Shown: positions 5,040 through 34,763 of the stretch, one piece after another
How positions within the stretch are numbered: position 1 is the stretch's first letter
Layout: every line of letters begins with the position of its first letter
Source of the DNA: Candidatus Parcubacteria bacterium
GTDB lineage: Bacteria > Patescibacteriota > Minisyncoccia > Phycocordibacterales > UBA2100
Assembly: GCA_003599175.1 (NCBI GenBank)
Contig: QZIY01000030.1
Location: forward strand, 1 to 34,923
Direction: 5' to 3'
Length of the DNA: 34,923 nucleotides
Translations under genes and position numbers: made by a program
Notes under the pieces: generated by a model
The model's input: the letters and a program-made list of their open reading frames with translations, nothing else
Told to the model about the DNA's origin: nothing
Databases searched by the model: none

Positions 5040-6812
5040 TTATTTAACTGTCACGCTCTTTGCGATATTGCGGGGTTTGTCGACGTTGTTGCCTAAGCTC
5101 ACTGCCATGTGGTAGGCGAGGAGCTGCAGCGGGATGATGGTGGTGATGCCGCTCGTTTCTCCCGTGTCGGGAATGTGGAGGTACTTTTTGAATGAATCGT
5201 GATTCTCGGGCGAGAGGCCGTACACGTGCGCGCCGCGAGCGGAAACCTCGTGTACCGCATTCAAGACTTCGTGCTTCACGTCGTCGTTGGATACGGCGAC
5301 GATGACAGGCACGCCTTCTTCCATGAGCGTGATCGCGTAGTGTTTGAGATCGCCCGCGGGGATCGCATGCGCGTGACGATATGAACCCTCGATCATTTTC
5401 ACCATGCCTTCTTTGATGATTTGAAGATTCTGACCCTTGCCGAGCAAGAAGATGTGCTCTTTTTTCGAGAGATCATGTGCGAGGTGTTTGACCGCGTCGA
5501 CGTATTCCTTGTTGGCGAGCATTTTGTCGATGGTTCGTGCGGTTGCAAGAAGTGTCTTTTTGCCTTCGGCGAGCTTACCCTGCACAGCTTTGGCGACGAG
5601 ATAACCCCAGGCGATTTGCGAGACAAAGATCTTTGTCGACATGACGCAGATCTCGGGGCCCGCATTGGCCATGAAGGGGAAGTCCGACATGCGCGTCATC
5701 ATGCTGCCGGGCATATTCACGTGCGAGGCGATGAGCGCCTTCTTCACCTTGGCATGTTCGAGGACCTCAAGCACGTCTGCCGTCTCACCGCTTTGCGATG
5801 GTGATATAAACAGATCTCCTTTTTTCACAAGCGGTACATACTCGTGCGCTTCGGCGCCGATCAACTCCTTGGCGTTGATCTTGCCGTACGTGCGCAGGTA
5901 GTACGCAGTCTGTGCGGCAGCGGCGCCGGCGGTACCCGAGCCGATGCAGTAGACCGTTCTTGCTTTCTTGACCGCAGCAGCGAGCTTTTTGTATTTTGCG
6001 TCTTCTTCGGCGACGACTTGGCGGATCACAGAGGGCGCTTCTTCGATCTCCTTTGCCATAAAGTGTTCGTGACCCTTCTTGTCGACGGAGACATCTTTCA
6101 ATTTGTTTTTCTCCCACACGGGCTTGAGCTTCTTTCCACTCGCGATCGCAAATACCTCAAATTTCCTGTCGCGACAGACGACAAGATCGCCGTTGTTGAG
6201 GACGAGAATATTTTCGACATGCGGTGCGAACGAAAAGACATCGGAAGAGAAGTAGAGTTCCTTTTCGTTTTTCGAAATACCAAGGACGAGGGGAGAGCCG
6301 TTGCGTGCCGCGATGACGTCACCATTGTCGGCAAGGACAATAACTGTATTCCGGCCGCCGAGCTCTTTGAAGGCGAGGCGCACTGCCTCTTCGAGAGAAT
6401 TAGCCTTTTTGCGCTTTTCTTCTACCAGGCGCACGATCACTTCTGTGTCTGTCTCGGAAATAAATTCATAGCCCTTCTTGATCAGCATTTTCTTGAGCGT
6501 CTCTACGTTTTCAACAATGCCGTTTTGGCACAAGACAAACGATTTGTCTGTGGAGTAATGCGGATGCGCATTCGGGACAGAGACCTTGCCATGCGTTGCC
6601 CAGCGCGTGTGCCCGATACCGATCGTTGCTTCCGGCAATACAGGACGATTCTTCGCCACAATGCCGACCTGCTTTTCAACTGATATTTCATTTTCCTTCA
6701 ATACCGCAACGCCCCACGAGTCGTACCCGCGGTAATCGAGTCGGCGCAGGCCTTCCATGACCGCTTCTGTCGCGTCGCGCTTGTCGCCGACGTATCCAAA
6801 AATTCCACACAT
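5040..6812 (-). CDS. glmS: glutamine--fructose-6-phosphate aminotransferase (isomerizing)
   Basis: MCGIFGYVG N-terminal nucleophile domain, GHTRWATHG, and SIS-domain motifs (SPSQSGETADVL, HAIPAGDLKHYAITL). Confidence 0.97.
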   Translation of the reverse strand: MCGIFGYVGDKRDATEAVMEGLRRLDYRGYDSWGVAVLKENEISVEKQVGIVAKNRPVLPEATIGIGHTRWATHGKVSVPNAHPHYSTDKSFVLCQNGIVENVETLKKMLIKKGYEFISETDTEVIVRLVEEKRKKANSLEEAVRLAFKELGGRNTVIVLADNGDVIAARNGSPLVLGISKNEKELYFSSDVFSFAPHVENILVLNNGDLVVCRDRKFEVFAIASGKKLKPVWEKNKLKDVSVDKKGHEHFMAKEIEEAPSVIRQVVAEEDAKYKKLAAAVKKARTVYCIGSGTAGAAAAQTAYYLRTYGKINAKELIGAEAHEYVPLVKKGDLFISPSQSGETADVLEVLEHAKVKKALIASHVNMPGSMMTRMSDFPFMANAGPEICVMSTKIFVSQIAWGYLVAKAVQGKLAEGKKTLLATARTIDKMLANKEYVDAVKHLAHDLSKKEHIFLLGKGQNLQIIKEGMVKMIEGSYRHAHAIPAGDLKHYAITLMEEGVPVIVAVSNDDVKHEVLNAVHEVSARGAHVYGLSPENHDSFKKYLHIPDTGETSGITTIIPLQLLAYHMAVSLGNNVDKPRNIAKSVTVK

Positions 6813-6837: not shown

Positions 6838-7041
6838 GGAAGCGACTCCGTCGTTTGTCCTTTGGCTCGACTGTTACCAGCCGATTTTGAAACAAACGTT
6901 ACGATCCGGAGAGATCGAAGGGTTTCCGCAGATACTGTCCAGCTTGGACGTCCGATTGCCAGCCGAAGCTGACCCCTTTCCTCGTAATCCCACAGGTTGA
7001 ACCCGTGGGAACCACACGCCTATTACTTGTAATCGCTTTCC
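6838..7041 (-). ncRNA. candidate structured 5' leader of glmS
   Basis: On the - strand a series of hairpins (tcccacgggttcaacctgtggga; cagc-UUCG-gctg; gtcc-aagct-ggac; cgatc-tctccg-gatcg within gaaac/gtttc) enclosed by ggaaagcgat / gtcgcttcc pairing. Confidence 0.4.
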
Positions 7042-7117: not shown

Positions 7118-7203
7118 ACGGATTGAAGCGGAACACTTGCACGTTTTTGGTGGCATGGTATTTTATTTTTATGAATGTAATTCCGGCGCAGATCACACTT
7201 CGT

Positions 7204-7287
7204 CGTCGTACGGTACTCTCCTTGAGGCCGTTTTAGAGCGTTGGAATTACTCAAACTCTCCAAATCGGCCTCAAAAGCCGATTTTTT
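7204..7287 (+). promoter_or_regulatory. leader element copy 1: candidate transcription attenuator/riboswitch
   Basis: cgtcgtac...tgaggc..gttttagagcgttgg...aactctccaaatcggcctcaa...; antiterminator ttgaggccg (7222-7230)/cggcctcaa (7266-7274) versus terminator aatcggc (7263-7269)/gccgatt (7277-7283) + T6 tract. Confidence 0.65.
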
Positions 7288-7346
7288 CGTTAGGTGTTTT
7301 CGCGAACCGAACGCACCTAACGGTGTGTTCTTTACAGGAGGAAAAA

Positions 7347-7856
7347 GTGGGGGAATATCAATCGCGCAAGAACATTTTCGTCAAAATCACCGGCGATCTG
7401 GCCGATGACAGGGCCGATGTCCACGAATGGATCGCAGAGCGTTCTCAAGAGGGTTTTGTAGTCGTCTGCATCGGCGGCGGCACCAGGATCAGCGACATGT
7501 GTCGAGACGAGAATATTCCGTACGAATTCTGTGAGCTTGGCCGGCAGTTGCCCACTTTTAGGGCGCGGCAAAAGGCTCGGGACATTCTCGAAGAGAATCA
7601 GCAGATGATGCAGGACATGCTCGCGGCAAGAGGTATTCAAGCCAACGTCATAATCCCGGTACTCGACATTGCTTCCGTACTTTGTCATGTGAATGGTGAC
7701 GCGATGGTCCAAAACGCGTACCTTGGTTTCGACGACTTGTACGTCCTCACTCTCGAAGGTCGTGAGGACAAGAAGCGACAGCAATTCGCCAAATTGCCCA
7801 GAGTTAGCGTCGTTTCGTTTCCGCGACTCGACTCGACTTCGCGAAACGCTTTCTGA
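7347..7856 (+). CDS. short amino-acid-kinase-fold-like protein, unknown function
   Basis: AGGAGG (7336-7341) then GTG start; NIFVKITGDLADD...GFVVVCIGGGTRISDM...AYLGFDDLYVLTLEGR resembles acetylglutamate/UMP kinase-type domains but is only about 169 aa. Confidence 0.65.
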   Translation: MGEYQSRKNIFVKITGDLADDRADVHEWIAERSQEGFVVVCIGGGTRISDMCRDENIPYEFCELGRQLPTFRARQKARDILEENQQMMQDMLAARGIQANVIIPVLDIASVLCHVNGDAMVQNAYLGFDDLYVLTLEGREDKKRQQFAKLPRVSVVSFPRLDSTSRNAF

Positions 7857-7873
7857 CGCGACCTCAATCAGAC

Positions 7874-7906
7874 GCAAAGAGCGGACGGTACCCGCCCGCT
7901 CTTTGC
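7874..7906 (+). terminator. intrinsic terminator after the amino-acid-kinase-like gene
   Basis: gcaaagagcgg/ccgctctttgc, 11-bp stem. Confidence 0.7.
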
Positions 7907-7957
7907 AACCTTTTCCTCAAACCTCAATCAATATGCAACTCACATATCCAAAAAGTA

Positions 7958-7993
7958 GACACATCAAACTTTGCCGGTCGGCCATTTTTGATG
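7958..7993. repeat. 36-nt palindromic repeat, copy 2, intergenic
   Basis: gacacatcaaactttgccggtcggccatttttgatg; 28/36 identity to 4297-4332, imperfect hairpin. Confidence 0.6.
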
Positions 7994-8004
7994 CGTATTC
8001 AAAC

Positions 8005-8100
8005 CGTCGTACCAGCTTCATCCATGAGGCTGGTTTTGAGTGTTGGTAAATTTTCCAAAAACGAACTCTCCAAAGCGGCCTCATCGTGAGGCCGCTTTCT
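8005..8100 (+). promoter_or_regulatory. leader element copy 2: candidate transcription attenuator/riboswitch
   Basis: cgtcgtac...atgaggctggttttgagtgttgg...aactctccaaagcggcctcatcgtgaggccgctttct; antiterminator tgaggctg (8025-8032)/cggcctca (8076-8083, one GU) versus 12-bp terminator stem 8072-8083/8087-8098. Confidence 0.65.
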
Positions 8101-8134
8101 CGTCTTGTGACGGGTGCTGATCTTTGGAGGAACT

Positions 8135-8353
8135 ATGCGCAATAGAAAATGGTTGGCTCTCTCGGCGAAACTGAATGCAGCTGGGTGGGAAGGATCCACA
8201 GACCCCCGCATCTTGCGGAGAGATTATTTTGCCGGAGACGCACGCATGCGAGAAACGCTCGAAGAAGAGGGCGATCGAACAATCTATTTCTATGCAAAAG
8301 GTTCTCGTGAATGGGTGGATCAATCATTCATCGATCCTGCAACATTCACTTGA
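8135..8353 (+). CDS. small hypothetical protein
   Basis: GGAGG SD 5 nt upstream of ATG, 72-aa ORF MRNRKWLALSAKLNAAGWEGSTDPRILRRDYFAG..., followed at once by a terminator. Confidence 0.7.
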   Translation: MRNRKWLALSAKLNAAGWEGSTDPRILRRDYFAGDARMRETLEEEGDRTIYFYAKGSREWVDQSFIDPATFT

Positions 8354-8360
8354 TTCCCGA

Positions 8361-8381
8361 GCGGGCGCCTTCGGCGCCCGC
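8361..8381 (+). terminator. intrinsic terminator
   Basis: gcgggcgcc-ttc-ggcgcccgc followed by ttttc. Confidence 0.85.
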
Positions 8382-8402
8382 TTTTCTTTGTATAAAAACG
8401 AG

Positions 8403-31145: not shown

Positions 31146-31298
31146 CAGAACACATCTTTGTGTTGCGTAATCAAAAATGTTCACGCTAAAAACGTTGTAT
31201 TTCTGCGCTGGGTGTTAGTTATCCACTTTTTCCTCACGAAAATTTGCAGCCTGCGGGAGTACAATGACTATCCCAATTAGAAGCTAAATACGTTGCGC

Positions 31299-34200
31299 AT
31301 GACGAAACAAACAGCCACAAAGCGCTCAGAAAGAGCGTCGGTGAAAGAGACCCCCATAGAAGCGGCTCCGGTTGCAAAAGCTCTTTCGGGAGCAGGTCGC
31401 GTCTATCAGAAATATCTCCCCAATATCCAAAAACGCGATGGCCGCATCGTGCCATTTGAGTTCGACAAGATTGCCGAAGTGATTCACAAGGCCATGCTTG
31501 CTTCAAATGAAGGTTCAGCAGATGAAGCGGAAATCGTGGCGCACAAAGTGGCGGCGGAGATGATGCGCATCGCCAAAACGTACAAAAATTTCCTCCCAAC
31601 CGTCGAAGGGTGCCAGGATGAGGTCGAGCGTCAGCTCATGCTTTCCGACTATGTCTCGACCTCCAAGGCATATATCCTCTATCGCGCCAAGCGCGCTGAG
31701 CTGCGCAAAGAGCAGGGCAGCGTACCGGAGCATGTCCGCAGACTTACGGAGGAGTCAAAACAGTATTTCCAAGGAAATCCTTTGGGCGAATTCGTCTACT
31801 TGCGCACGTATGCTCGCTGGATCGAAAGCGAACAGCGTCGCGAGACGTGGGTGGAGACTGTCGATCGCTACGTCGACTTTATGAAGGAAAATCTTGGTAC
31901 CAAGCTCTCCGGAAAAGAGTATGCCGAGATCCGGGAAGCGATTTTGAAACAGGAAGTCATGCCCTCGATGCGCGCCATGCAGTTTTCCGGTGCTCCAGCG
32001 AGGAAGTGCAACACGTGTTTCTACAACTGCTCATTCACCGCACCCGTGAAGCTCGAAGATTTTGCGGAGATCATGTACCTCTCGATGCAGGGGACAGGTG
32101 TCGGCTTTGCGGTGGAGAGTCAAAATATCGAACAGCTTCCGCAAATTCAAAAGCAGACAGGTCAGAAATTGTCGACGCACGTTGTGCGGGATTCGAAGGA
32201 GGGTTGGTGCGACGCGCTCACACTTGGTCTCAAGACATGGTACGCGGGCAAGGACATCGATTTCGATCTCTCGCTCGTGCGCCCTGCGGGCAGCCGTCTC
32301 AAGACCATGGGGGGCAAGTCATCTGGCCCAGAGCCACTCCGCAATTTGCTCACCTTTGCGCGCGATCGCATTTTGCGTCGTCAGGGCCGTCGTCTTCGCA
32401 CTATCGATGCGCACGACATCATCTGCAAAATCGGGGAATGTGTCGTTGCCGGTGGTGTACGCCGCAGCGCCATGATCTCGCTCTCGGATCTCGACGATCT
32501 CGAGCTTCGCGATGCGAAGAAGGGGCAATTTTATCTCACCGATCCGCATCGGGCGATGGCCAACAACTCCGCAGTATACGAGACGAAGCCGACCAACGCC
32601 GAACTCATGGATGAATGGGTCGCACTCATGAAATCCGGTTCGGGCGAGCGCGGTATTTTCAATCGCGGCGCACTCGAGAAGACGATGCCTAAGCGCCGCT
32701 TCAAATTCCTCGAGAAGAAAAACGGTACGATGAAAGGGTACATCGGCCAGGTAGGTACCAATCCGTGCGTGCCGGCAGACACGTGGGTTCAGACCACTGA
32801 AGGCGCTCGCCGTGCGGGTGATCTCGTCGGCAAGCAGTTTGATGCGCTTGTGAACGGTAAAGCATACCGCTCTGAGGGCTTTTTCAAGACTGGTGAAAAA
32901 AAAGTTTTCGAGGTGATGACCGATCGCGGATTTCGATTTCGGGCGACGGACAATCACCAGGTACTCACCGTTTCCTATCAGTCCCGCAAAGTGCAGAAGA
33001 AGGAATGGAAAGAGGTCAAGGACCTGCAGGAGGGCGATACCATCGTTCTCCATGACCATGCGGAAGCGAAGTGGACAGGCCACGGAACTGCACAAGAGGG
33101 CTGGCTCCTTGGCTCACTTCTTGGTGACGGCAACATAGAAAGCAATCAAAAAGCCAATCTCGATTACTGGGGCGTCGATCGCGAGCGTGTGCTGACGCAT
33201 GCTCGGGAACTGGTGCACGCGACCGTGGGCGGCAGAAGCGATCTGACAGGGCACGTGTCGAAAACCGGCTATGCACGCATCGGATCAATGAAGCTCGGCG
33301 CGCTCGCGGCTCAGTACAATATGACCACGCAAAGCAAATTGCCGCAGGATCGCATCGAAGAGGCATCATCGGATTTTTATGAGGGCTTTTTACGCGGTTG
33401 GTTTGACGCCGATGGATCAATTCAGGGTTCACAGCGCAAGGGTGTTTCGGTGCGGCTCGCTTCTTCCTCGTTTTCCGCTCTTGAGACGGCGCAACGCATG
33501 CTCGCCCGGCTTGGCATCATCAGCACGATCTATGAGAACAGACGCGAAGAGAGCATGCGGATGCTTCCCGATGGCAAGGGCGGCTCCAAAGCATACCTCT
33601 GCGCAGCCGACCACGAGCTGATCATTTCCGGTTCCAATGTCGAGCGGTTTGCAAAGCGCATCGGCTTCGTCGAACCACTCAAACAAGCGCGCCTCATGAA
33701 AACACTCCGCTCTTACAAGCGCGCCTTCAATCGCGAACGCTTTAGCGCACGCATAGTGTCCATTGGCGCACAGGGATTCGAAGCGGTTTATGATTGTCAG
33801 GTGGCCGTTGTGCACGCATTCGACGGCAATGGCGCGTATCTCCATAATTGTGGTGAAATCATTTTGCAGTCGAAGCAATTCTGCAATCTCTCCGAAGTGA
33901 TCGCACGCCCGCACGATGATGAGAAATCGCTCTTGCGCAAAGCGAGACTCGCCACCATCCTTGGTACCTATCAGTCGACGCTCACCAAATTCAACTACAT
34001 CTCGGAAGACTGGAAGAAAAATTGCGAGGATGAGCGCCTCCTTGGTGTTTCGATCACTGGTCAGTGGGATTGTCCGGCGGTACGCAACGGCGCTGTGATG
34101 CGCAAAATGAAAGAAGTGACGATCAAGACCAATCAGGAGTATGCAAAGCGCTTTGGCGTCAATCCGTCCAATTCGATCACGTGTGTGAAGCCCTCGGGCA

Positions 34201-34763
34201 CCGTTTCGCAGACCTTCGACTGCTCCTCGGGCCTCCATCCGCGTCACGCGCAGCACTACATCCGCCGCATCCGCATCACTGCGACAGACTCGCTCTTCAA
34301 GATGATGCGCGATCAGGGTGTACCGCATCATCCGGAAGTCGGACAGGTAGCGGGCGAGGCGAATACCTATGTATTGGAATTCCCAGTGCAGGCGCCGAAG
34401 GGATCGGTATTCAAAAACGATCTCTCTGCCATCGAACAGCTCGAATACTGGAAGCTCGTGAAGCTCAATTGGACCGAACATAATCCATCGGCGACGGTTT
34501 CGGTCGGCGAAGAGGAGTGGGTGGCGGTGGTCGCCTGGCTCTACGAAAACTGGGATATCATCGGCGGCCTCTCCTTCCTCCCGCGCGACAATCACGTCTA
34601 CAGGCTTGCACCGTATGAGCCGATCGATAAGGCCACGTACGATCGTATGAGTGAGAATTTCCCGCAAGTGGACTACTCGAAACTCTACACCTACGAGAAA
34701 ACCGACGAGACCGAACAGGCCAAGGAATTGGCTTGCGCCGGAGGGACGTGCGAAATCATTTAG
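31299..34763 (+). CDS. nrdJ: adenosylcobalamin-dependent (class II) ribonucleotide reductase, intein-containing
   Basis: N-terminal ATP-cone, CNTCFYNCSF, MQGTGVGFAVES, NP^CGEI split by an intein, KPSGTVSQTFDCSSGLHPRH; TTG at 31293 is an alternative start. Confidence 0.95.
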   Translation: MTKQTATKRSERASVKETPIEAAPVAKALSGAGRVYQKYLPNIQKRDGRIVPFEFDKIAEVIHKAMLASNEGSADEAEIVAHKVAAEMMRIAKTYKNFLPTVEGCQDEVERQLMLSDYVSTSKAYILYRAKRAELRKEQGSVPEHVRRLTEESKQYFQGNPLGEFVYLRTYARWIESEQRRETWVETVDRYVDFMKENLGTKLSGKEYAEIREAILKQEVMPSMRAMQFSGAPARKCNTCFYNCSFTAPVKLEDFAEIMYLSMQGTGVGFAVESQNIEQLPQIQKQTGQKLSTHVVRDSKEGWCDALTLGLKTWYAGKDIDFDLSLVRPAGSRLKTMGGKSSGPEPLRNLLTFARDRILRRQGRRLRTIDAHDIICKIGECVVAGGVRRSAMISLSDLDDLELRDAKKGQFYLTDPHRAMANNSAVYETKPTNAELMDEWVALMKSGSGERGIFNRGALEKTMPKRRFKFLEKKNGTMKGYIGQVGTNPCVPADTWVQTTEGARRAGDLVGKQFDALVNGKAYRSEGFFKTGEKKVFEVMTDRGFRFRATDNHQVLTVSYQSRKVQKKEWKEVKDLQEGDTIVLHDHAEAKWTGHGTAQEGWLLGSLLGDGNIESNQKANLDYWGVDRERVLTHARELVHATVGGRSDLTGHVSKTGYARIGSMKLGALAAQYNMTTQSKLPQDRIEEASSDFYEGFLRGWFDADGSIQGSQRKGVSVRLASSSFSALETAQRMLARLGIISTIYENRREESMRMLPDGKGGSKAYLCAADHELIISGSNVERFAKRIGFVEPLKQARLMKTLRSYKRAFNRERFSARIVSIGAQGFEAVYDCQVAVVHAFDGNGAYLHNCGEIILQSKQFCNLSEVIARPHDDEKSLLRKARLATILGTYQSTLTKFNYISEDWKKNCEDERLLGVSITGQWDCPAVRNGAVMRKMKEVTIKTNQEYAKRFGVNPSNSITCVKPSGTVSQTFDCSSGLHPRHAQHYIRRIRITATDSLFKMMRDQGVPHHPEVGQVAGEANTYVLEFPVQAPKGSVFKNDLSAIEQLEYWKLVKLNWTEHNPSATVSVGEEEWVAVVAWLYENWDIIGGLSFLPRDNHVYRLAPYEPIDKATYDRMSENFPQVDYSKLYTYEKTDETEQAKELACAGGTCEII
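32766..33848 (+). mobile_element. intein with LAGLIDADG homing endonuclease inside NrdJ
   Basis: Starts C-V-P-A-D-T-W-V at GTNP^C and ends A-Y-L-H-N before C-G-E-I; TDNHQVLT block B, LLGSLLGDGNIE and LRGWFDADGSIQ endonuclease motifs; 361 aa. Confidence 0.93.

Follow-up and report, generated by a model that had tools for sequence, protein, structure and literature searches.

The window analysed here is a stretch of 34,923 nucleotides from a Candidatus Parcubacteria bacterium, forming a contig of a 0.92 Mb genome that is 88% complete. On its minus strand, glmS (5040-6812) lies downstream of a glmS ribozyme at 6842-7031 (RF00234, 56.9 bits in the Rfam scan), and at 31293-34763 on the plus strand the translation of a 1156-aa ORF resembles a ribonucleotide reductase split by an intein. 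Two related leaders, copy 1 (7198-7294) and copy 2 (7999-8108), lie on the plus strand, each ahead of a small gene with a Shine-Dalgarno (SD) sequence, and these genes begin at 7347 and 8135, as the initial annotation had placed them. Since copy 1 sits between the minus-strand glmS and gene 1, there is no upstream plus-strand gene that it could terminate, which had likewise been noted. The features of the locus are as follows.

7137-7164 (+): predicted promoter of leader 1, a consensus match only (-35 box TTGCAC at 7137-7142, 16-nt spacer, -10 box TATTTT at 7159-7164)
7171-7236 (+): leader peptide ORF 1, encoding MNVIPAQITLRRRTVLSLRPF up to its stop codon, with no SD and probably leaderless
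7201-7209 (+): control codons CGT CGT CGT (Arg-Arg-Arg), with Arg conserved across the family
7210-7218 (+): segment 1, predicted by folding to pair with segment 2 when free of ribosomes
7223-7273 (+): antiterminator hairpin 2:3, a long interrupted helix predicted by folding (family mean z -5.4)
7262-7287 (+): terminator hairpin 3:4 (7262-7269 with 7277-7284) leading into a U-run, from folding and sequence
7347-7856 (+): gene 1, 169 aa, GTG start, SD GGAGGA at 7337-7342, predicted miniature amino-acid-kinase fold nearest to acetylglutamate kinase
7874-7907 (+): hairpin after gene 1, read from the sequence as a possible terminator, with no perfect U-run
7991-7993 (+): ATG at the position expected for leader ORF 2, out of frame with the Arg codons
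8005-8010 (+): CGT CGT of copy 2, in a frame reading NRRTSFIHEAGFECW up to a stop codon
8011-8034 (+): 1:2 hairpin of copy 2, predicted by folding
8024-8084 (+): antiterminator hairpin 2:3 of copy 2, predicted by folding
8072-8098 (+): terminator hairpin 3:4 of copy 2, 12 bp, predicted by folding
8135-8353 (+): gene 2, 72 aa, resembling a GNAT N-terminus in BLASTP and apparently truncated
8360-8386 (+): terminator after gene 2, read from the sequence

The two leaders match each other in a BLAST comparison across the whole 0.92 Mb genome (E 0.001), and a covariance model places them in one RNA family, scoring copy 1 at 72.8 bits (E 1e-15) and copy 2 at 81.2 bits (E 8e-18), both copies themselves belonging to its seven seeds. 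The remaining seeds of this model, R1, were five leaders obtained by BLAST of copy 2 and by protein homology of gene 1; L008 and L010 came through gene-1 homology and L012 and L014 through the terminator arms, and all four of these, found independently of the Arg codons, carry RR. A search of R1 in 53 genomes of the genus returned copies with strong matches (E <1e-6) in more than 20 genomes, and outside the genus a strong match was found in another family of the same order (L056 in genome G212). Weaker order-level matches (L057-L067) were excluded, as the leader-peptide geometry is absent from them. Across 389 genomes of the phylum, a second model, R2, yielded three weak outside matches, a lower bound since few candidates were scored per genome. 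One of these, L149, shares the leader design with the peptide MNLLNIRRRNLIYHFWLLDSTRSF; this RRR leader (L149:1501-1618, minus strand) belongs to a different family of the phylum and lies upstream of a threonine-synthase-like PLP enzyme. On a Moranbacteria contig (L115), an RRR leader encoding MNKPISIIIIRRRNSSAMRSLDSVVFC precedes a mini-kinase gene related to gene 1 and an amino-acid N-acetyltransferase-like gene. Within the window's own genome, BLAST and the family model detected no further strong copies, and the Rfam scan of the window matched glmS and tRNA-Ser only, leaving the leaders unmatched, in line with the initial view that they contain no known riboswitch consensus.

The sequence elements on which the homology was originally proposed are all present, namely TTGAGGCCG (7222-7230) and CGGCCTCAA (7266-7274) in copy 1 and TGAGGCTG (8025-8032) and CGGCCTCA (8076-8083) in copy 2, and in the terminator stems a T-A pair of copy 1 corresponds to a G-C pair in copy 2, a change on both sides. 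In nearly every copy of the family, the hairpins 1:2, 2:3 and 3:4 form as alternatives in the predicted folds. The antiterminator is a single long interrupted hairpin consisting of segment 2, a GAG/CTT block and an apical stem, and this hairpin (7223-7273 and 8024-8084) explains the shared blocks gttttagagcgttgg and aactctccaaa; together with the leader peptide and the promoter, it is an element that the initial annotation did not contain. Compared with dinucleotide shuffles, the full leaders of the window are more stable (z -2.5 and -5.6), as are the isolated terminators (z -3.5 and -6.7), and the antiterminator mean given above covers 29 family members. Ahead of the structural gene, the 3:4 hairpin constitutes an intrinsic terminator, with an 8-bp stem and a U-run in copy 1 and 12 bp followed by a broken U-run in copy 2. 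A variant arrangement occurs in L084:3698-3814 and L085:3936-4035 (minus strand), in which segment 4 holds the SD (AAGGAGA) without a U-run; these leaders are apparently the same switch turned to translational control by SD sequestration, and the gene behind them is weakly similar to dimethylargininase and arginine dihydrolase.

When the full set of 29 leaders was aligned with MAFFT (A4), segment 3 was put in the wrong place in several of them, and pair counts were therefore taken from a model-guided alignment (A6). Having been built around the 1:2 / 3:4 structure, A6 is biased toward it in its counts; in this alignment, 93.8% of the cells of the terminator-side fold are paired, two-sided changes occur in 12 of 22 pairs compared with a shuffle mean of 4.2 (none of 500 shuffles reaching as high), and sliding the alignment by one column roughly halves the pairing. 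For the antiterminator, 92.7% of cells are paired versus at most 62.5% when slid, while two-sided changes within the genus are confined to three pairs, a weak excess that 67 of 500 shuffles equal, which is explained by segments 2 and 3 each being tied to two partners. The proposal that the two leaders are homologous cis-regulatory elements, in which antiterminator and terminator exclude each other, is thus borne out by the stems, by homologs in relatives (more than 20 genomes of the genus) and by covariation above that of shuffles.

The conserved CGTCGTAC block near the 5' end of the leaders is coding. Among the 31 tabulated leaders, adjacent RR is found in 28 and R-x-R in three, in frame in all 31, with peptides such as MTHNARRTASFEAV, MNRIASASASARRTVSIEAV, MSIYIVRRAASSIEAV and MQVRITNTQNRRRTASIRLF, each ending at a stop codon. 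Apart from copy 2, an ATG or GTG start mostly lies 5-13 codons upstream of the Arg codons, which lie next to segment 1 on its 5' side, and the stop codon falls within or close to segment 2, a geometry common to attenuators of the trp type; in copy 1, the tandem codons CGT CGT CGT lie in an ATG-started ORF. Across 79 control-codon positions, the first base is C in 76 and the second is G in 78, whereas the third is A in 57, T in 15, C in six and G in one, so that variation is mainly at the third position and mostly synonymous, and one leader uses AGG. As the model includes the Arg-codon columns, the conservation of Arg among copies found with it is partly selected. The leaders thus mostly rely on a codon that is otherwise rare: CGA accounts for 55 of 76 leader Arg codons (72%) versus 9% among the Arg codons of 20 genes in the window. 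Both copies in the window itself have CGT, whose share is 16%.

Most copies carry a TTGACA/TTGCNN box, a spacer of 15-18 nt and a TATAAT-like box ending 6-8 nt before the leader start codon, with a mean promoter score across the family of 8.5 of 12 compared with 6.5 in shuffles. Leader 1 follows the layout of most family members, its -10 box ending 6 nt before the start codon. This spacing suggests that translation of the leader peptide starts right at the 5' end of the transcript, and the leader ORF is probably leaderless, with its start codon at or next to the transcription start.

The genes behind the leader in relatives point to the amino acid that would be sensed. One genome has the leader followed by argC-argJ-argB-argD, and an HMM search of the genus placed it upstream of argG at 11 of 15 argG loci; the other four are a contig edge, an operon position after a carbamoyltransferase-like gene, a locus with a weak terminator-like match only and a divergent argG without leader. 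Further operons behind it contain the mini-kinase and/or a GNAT, ornithine carbamoyltransferase (OTC) and purF. The argCJBD, argG and mini-kinase/GNAT/OTC contexts tie the leader to arginine synthesis, and in the argCJBD, argG and OTC operons the downstream genes make the very amino acid encoded by the control codons; for gene 1 of the window this link is drawn entirely from its fold and family context. First genes with no evident arginine role follow the leaders L030, L033, L037, L041, L082, L083 and L149.

Both window genes are small, as first described, but they are no longer without any indication of function. Searched alone against Pfam, NCBIfam and PDB sequences, gene 1 gave only sub-threshold argB/AA_kinase hints, so its assignment needed the family alignment and a predicted fold; a viral_contigs scan with it gave no match. 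A profile search retrieved the acetylglutamate kinase 3l86 (E 0.0036), PF00696 was matched at E<=0.1 by 17 of 27 family members (best 1.1e-5), and the AlphaFold2 model (pLDDT 91.3), in which the amino-acid kinase fold is predicted, has acetylglutamate kinases and N-acetylglutamate synthases as its top PDB matches (E from 1e-5). The family comprises 31 loci (L090-L120) encoding 150-170 aa in many Patescibacteria lineages, including contigs labelled Candidatus Kaiserbacteria and Nomurabacteria, and in one contig labelled Pacearchaeota; its members follow argC in one genome and precede GNAT and OTC in others. Gene 1 thus resembles ArgB and the kinase domain of N-acetylglutamate synthase in fold, best structural matches, the 3l86 profile match and arginine-gene neighbours, but differs from ArgB in length (150-170 aa versus about 230-290) and lies far below the argB cut-off, with 12.7 bits against 151.3 for TIGR00761 over the N-terminal part only. 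Since it falls short of this cut-off, we refer to gene 1 as a miniature amino-acid-kinase-fold protein with a putative role in arginine metabolism. At L096:3001-4818, on a Moranbacteria contig, a family member shares part of its length with an ORF that runs on in the same frame into argininosuccinate synthase (ArgG), likely a fusion with a frameshift near its start. In the window's own 88% complete genome, an HMM search did not find argG and the sole carbamoyltransferase match is pyrB, so that the pathway served by gene 1 would be incomplete or unusual here.

Copy 1 appears intact and would control this miniature acetylglutamate-kinase-like protein. In copy 2, the only ATG in frame with the Arg codons is at 7933, far upstream and without a good promoter. 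Gene 2 aligns with relatives' GNATs behind the same leader over the N-terminal approximately 50 residues only (BLASTP E 0.003 and 0.026), a stretch that does not extend to an acetyl-CoA binding core. Judging from the sequence, copy 2 and gene 2 are probably a decayed or decaying duplicate in front of a truncated acetyltransferase remnant, and copy 2 has probably lost its function as a switch and is perhaps constitutively terminated.

We conclude with considerable confidence that the leaders are trp-type attenuators of transcription, mediated by the ribosome and responsive to arginine. This reading is carried by the three stems, which exclude one another and show covariation, by Arg codons that stay in frame and vary for the most part synonymously, and by the association with arginine genes. 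Transcription would begin at or next to the leader start codon, producing a very short 5' region with the ribosome following. When charged tRNA-Arg, the presumed signal, is scarce, the ribosome would stall at Arg-Arg(-Arg) and cover segment 1, allowing segment 2 to pair with segment 3, so that the terminator is blocked and the arginine gene transcribed. With plentiful arginine, the ribosome would proceed to the stop codon, within or close to segment 2, and mask that segment, and the 3:4 terminator would form; without any translation, 1:2 and 3:4 would both form and the gene would be off. Expression at low charged tRNA-Arg is the sign that suits biosynthesis genes.

Another reading is the arrest of the ribosome by the nascent peptide itself, in which R(x)R would stall translation in response to a small molecule, either a macrolide through a +x+ motif or free arginine, in the manner of the fungal arginine attenuator peptide. 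The motifs RRR, RHR and RGR are known macrolide arrest motifs, and R-R-[TA] is conserved beyond the codons themselves. Many copies, however, have RR only and lack +x+, and the codon after RR is variable (ACA, GCA, ACG, GAA, CAA); the macrolide version was rejected because +x+ is not universal and the genes behind the leaders are those of arginine synthesis rather than resistance, while stalling at high arginine would turn biosynthesis genes on, which is the wrong sign. Peptide arrest therefore seems to us quite improbable.

The initial annotation had favoured a riboswitch or other undescribed sensing class, and a metabolite-binding riboswitch for arginine or another ligand, coupled to an expression platform, would account for a conserved leader with alternative stems, need no protein and agree with the empty Rfam result. 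This part of the earlier interpretation does not hold up well, because the 5' block is coding, with tandem Arg codons that vary at third positions and keep Arg even as AGG, start and stop codons are placed as suits a leader peptide in nearly all copies, and arginine operons lie downstream in relatives; besides the stems and the coding block, the leaders contain no conserved unpaired aptamer core. We regard a riboswitch as very improbable. A repeated mobile or remnant sequence with no regulatory role, such as a MITE or an attC-like element, could be imagined from the two close copies in the window and the varied genes behind the leader in relatives, yet the fixed position and orientation just before a start codon, the leader's own promoter, covariation, coding constraint and the lack of more strong copies in the genome make it an extremely remote reading.

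The attenuator interpretation can be extended only tentatively. A further leader, L151:1501-1606 (minus strand), has the same architecture and 6-nt spacing to its ATG, and its peptide MKQIFHSIKCCVTQTVPCLRLFASACKL, ending at a stop codon, contains Cys-Cys codons, which suggests a cysteine-coded version. It is conceivable, though in our estimate somewhat doubtful, that Patescibacteria possess modular attenuators with leaderless peptides, their start codon at the transcription start, recoded for various amino acids (Cys-Cys in L151, RRR in L149, translational in L084 and L085), the arginine version governing a pathway that is streamlined and includes a miniature acetylglutamate kinase. To our knowledge, gene regulation in Patescibacteria is almost unstudied, and the family described here has a signal, arginine supply, and target genes that are predictable from sequence. 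It would carry classical amino-acid attenuation into this phylum and, according to the literature searched, into bacterial arginine-biosynthesis operons, points to an uncharacterised miniature kinase family in the arginine metabolism of reduced genomes, and suggests that Patescibacteria leader peptides can begin at the extreme 5' end of the transcript.

Ribosome-mediated leader-peptide attenuators are known for trp, his, leu, thr, ilv and phe in proteobacteria. Beyond these, such attenuators have been described for trp, ilv and leuS in Actinobacteria, where arginine operons showed no conserved upstream RNA structures (PMC1262725), and a his leader peptide is found at hisS paralogs of bacilli (PMC2965389). 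Arginine codons in upstream ORFs act differently elsewhere. Salmonella orf34 (speFL), upstream of speF, has two consecutive Arg codons at which arginine-dependent ribosome pausing alters mRNA folding, but it controls an ornithine decarboxylase through Rho, RNase G and access to the ribosome-binding site, with no intrinsic terminator before arginine-synthesis genes (PMC6386406). In Staphylococcus aureus, rare Arg codons in the small upstream ORF rbfL sense arginine limitation, but at the level of translation initiation, where occlusion of the ribosome-binding site turns the gene down and no alternative terminator is involved (PMC13009471). T-box leaders likewise respond to the charging of tRNA and act on an intrinsic terminator ahead of amino-acid genes, whereas in the Patescibacteria family the translating ribosome would be the sensor; in the Rfam scan, no T-box (stem I specifier loop, T-box sequence) was matched at the gathering threshold. 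Our literature search, which had subscription papers and preprints outside its scope so that absence is not proof, found no leader-peptide attenuator of arginine operons and no leader-peptide regulation in Patescibacteria. With the classical amino-acid attenuators the family shares a short ORF with a run of end-product codons, the 1:2, 2:3 and 3:4 stems and an intrinsic terminator before a biosynthesis gene, and it departs from them in the amino acid arginine, its occurrence in Patescibacteria, the apparently leaderless ORF and the long interrupted 2:3 helix with its conserved internal GAG/CTT block. The mechanism itself is classical, and the novelty lies, as far as the literature searched shows, in arginine as the amino acid, in the phylum and in a start that is probably leaderless.
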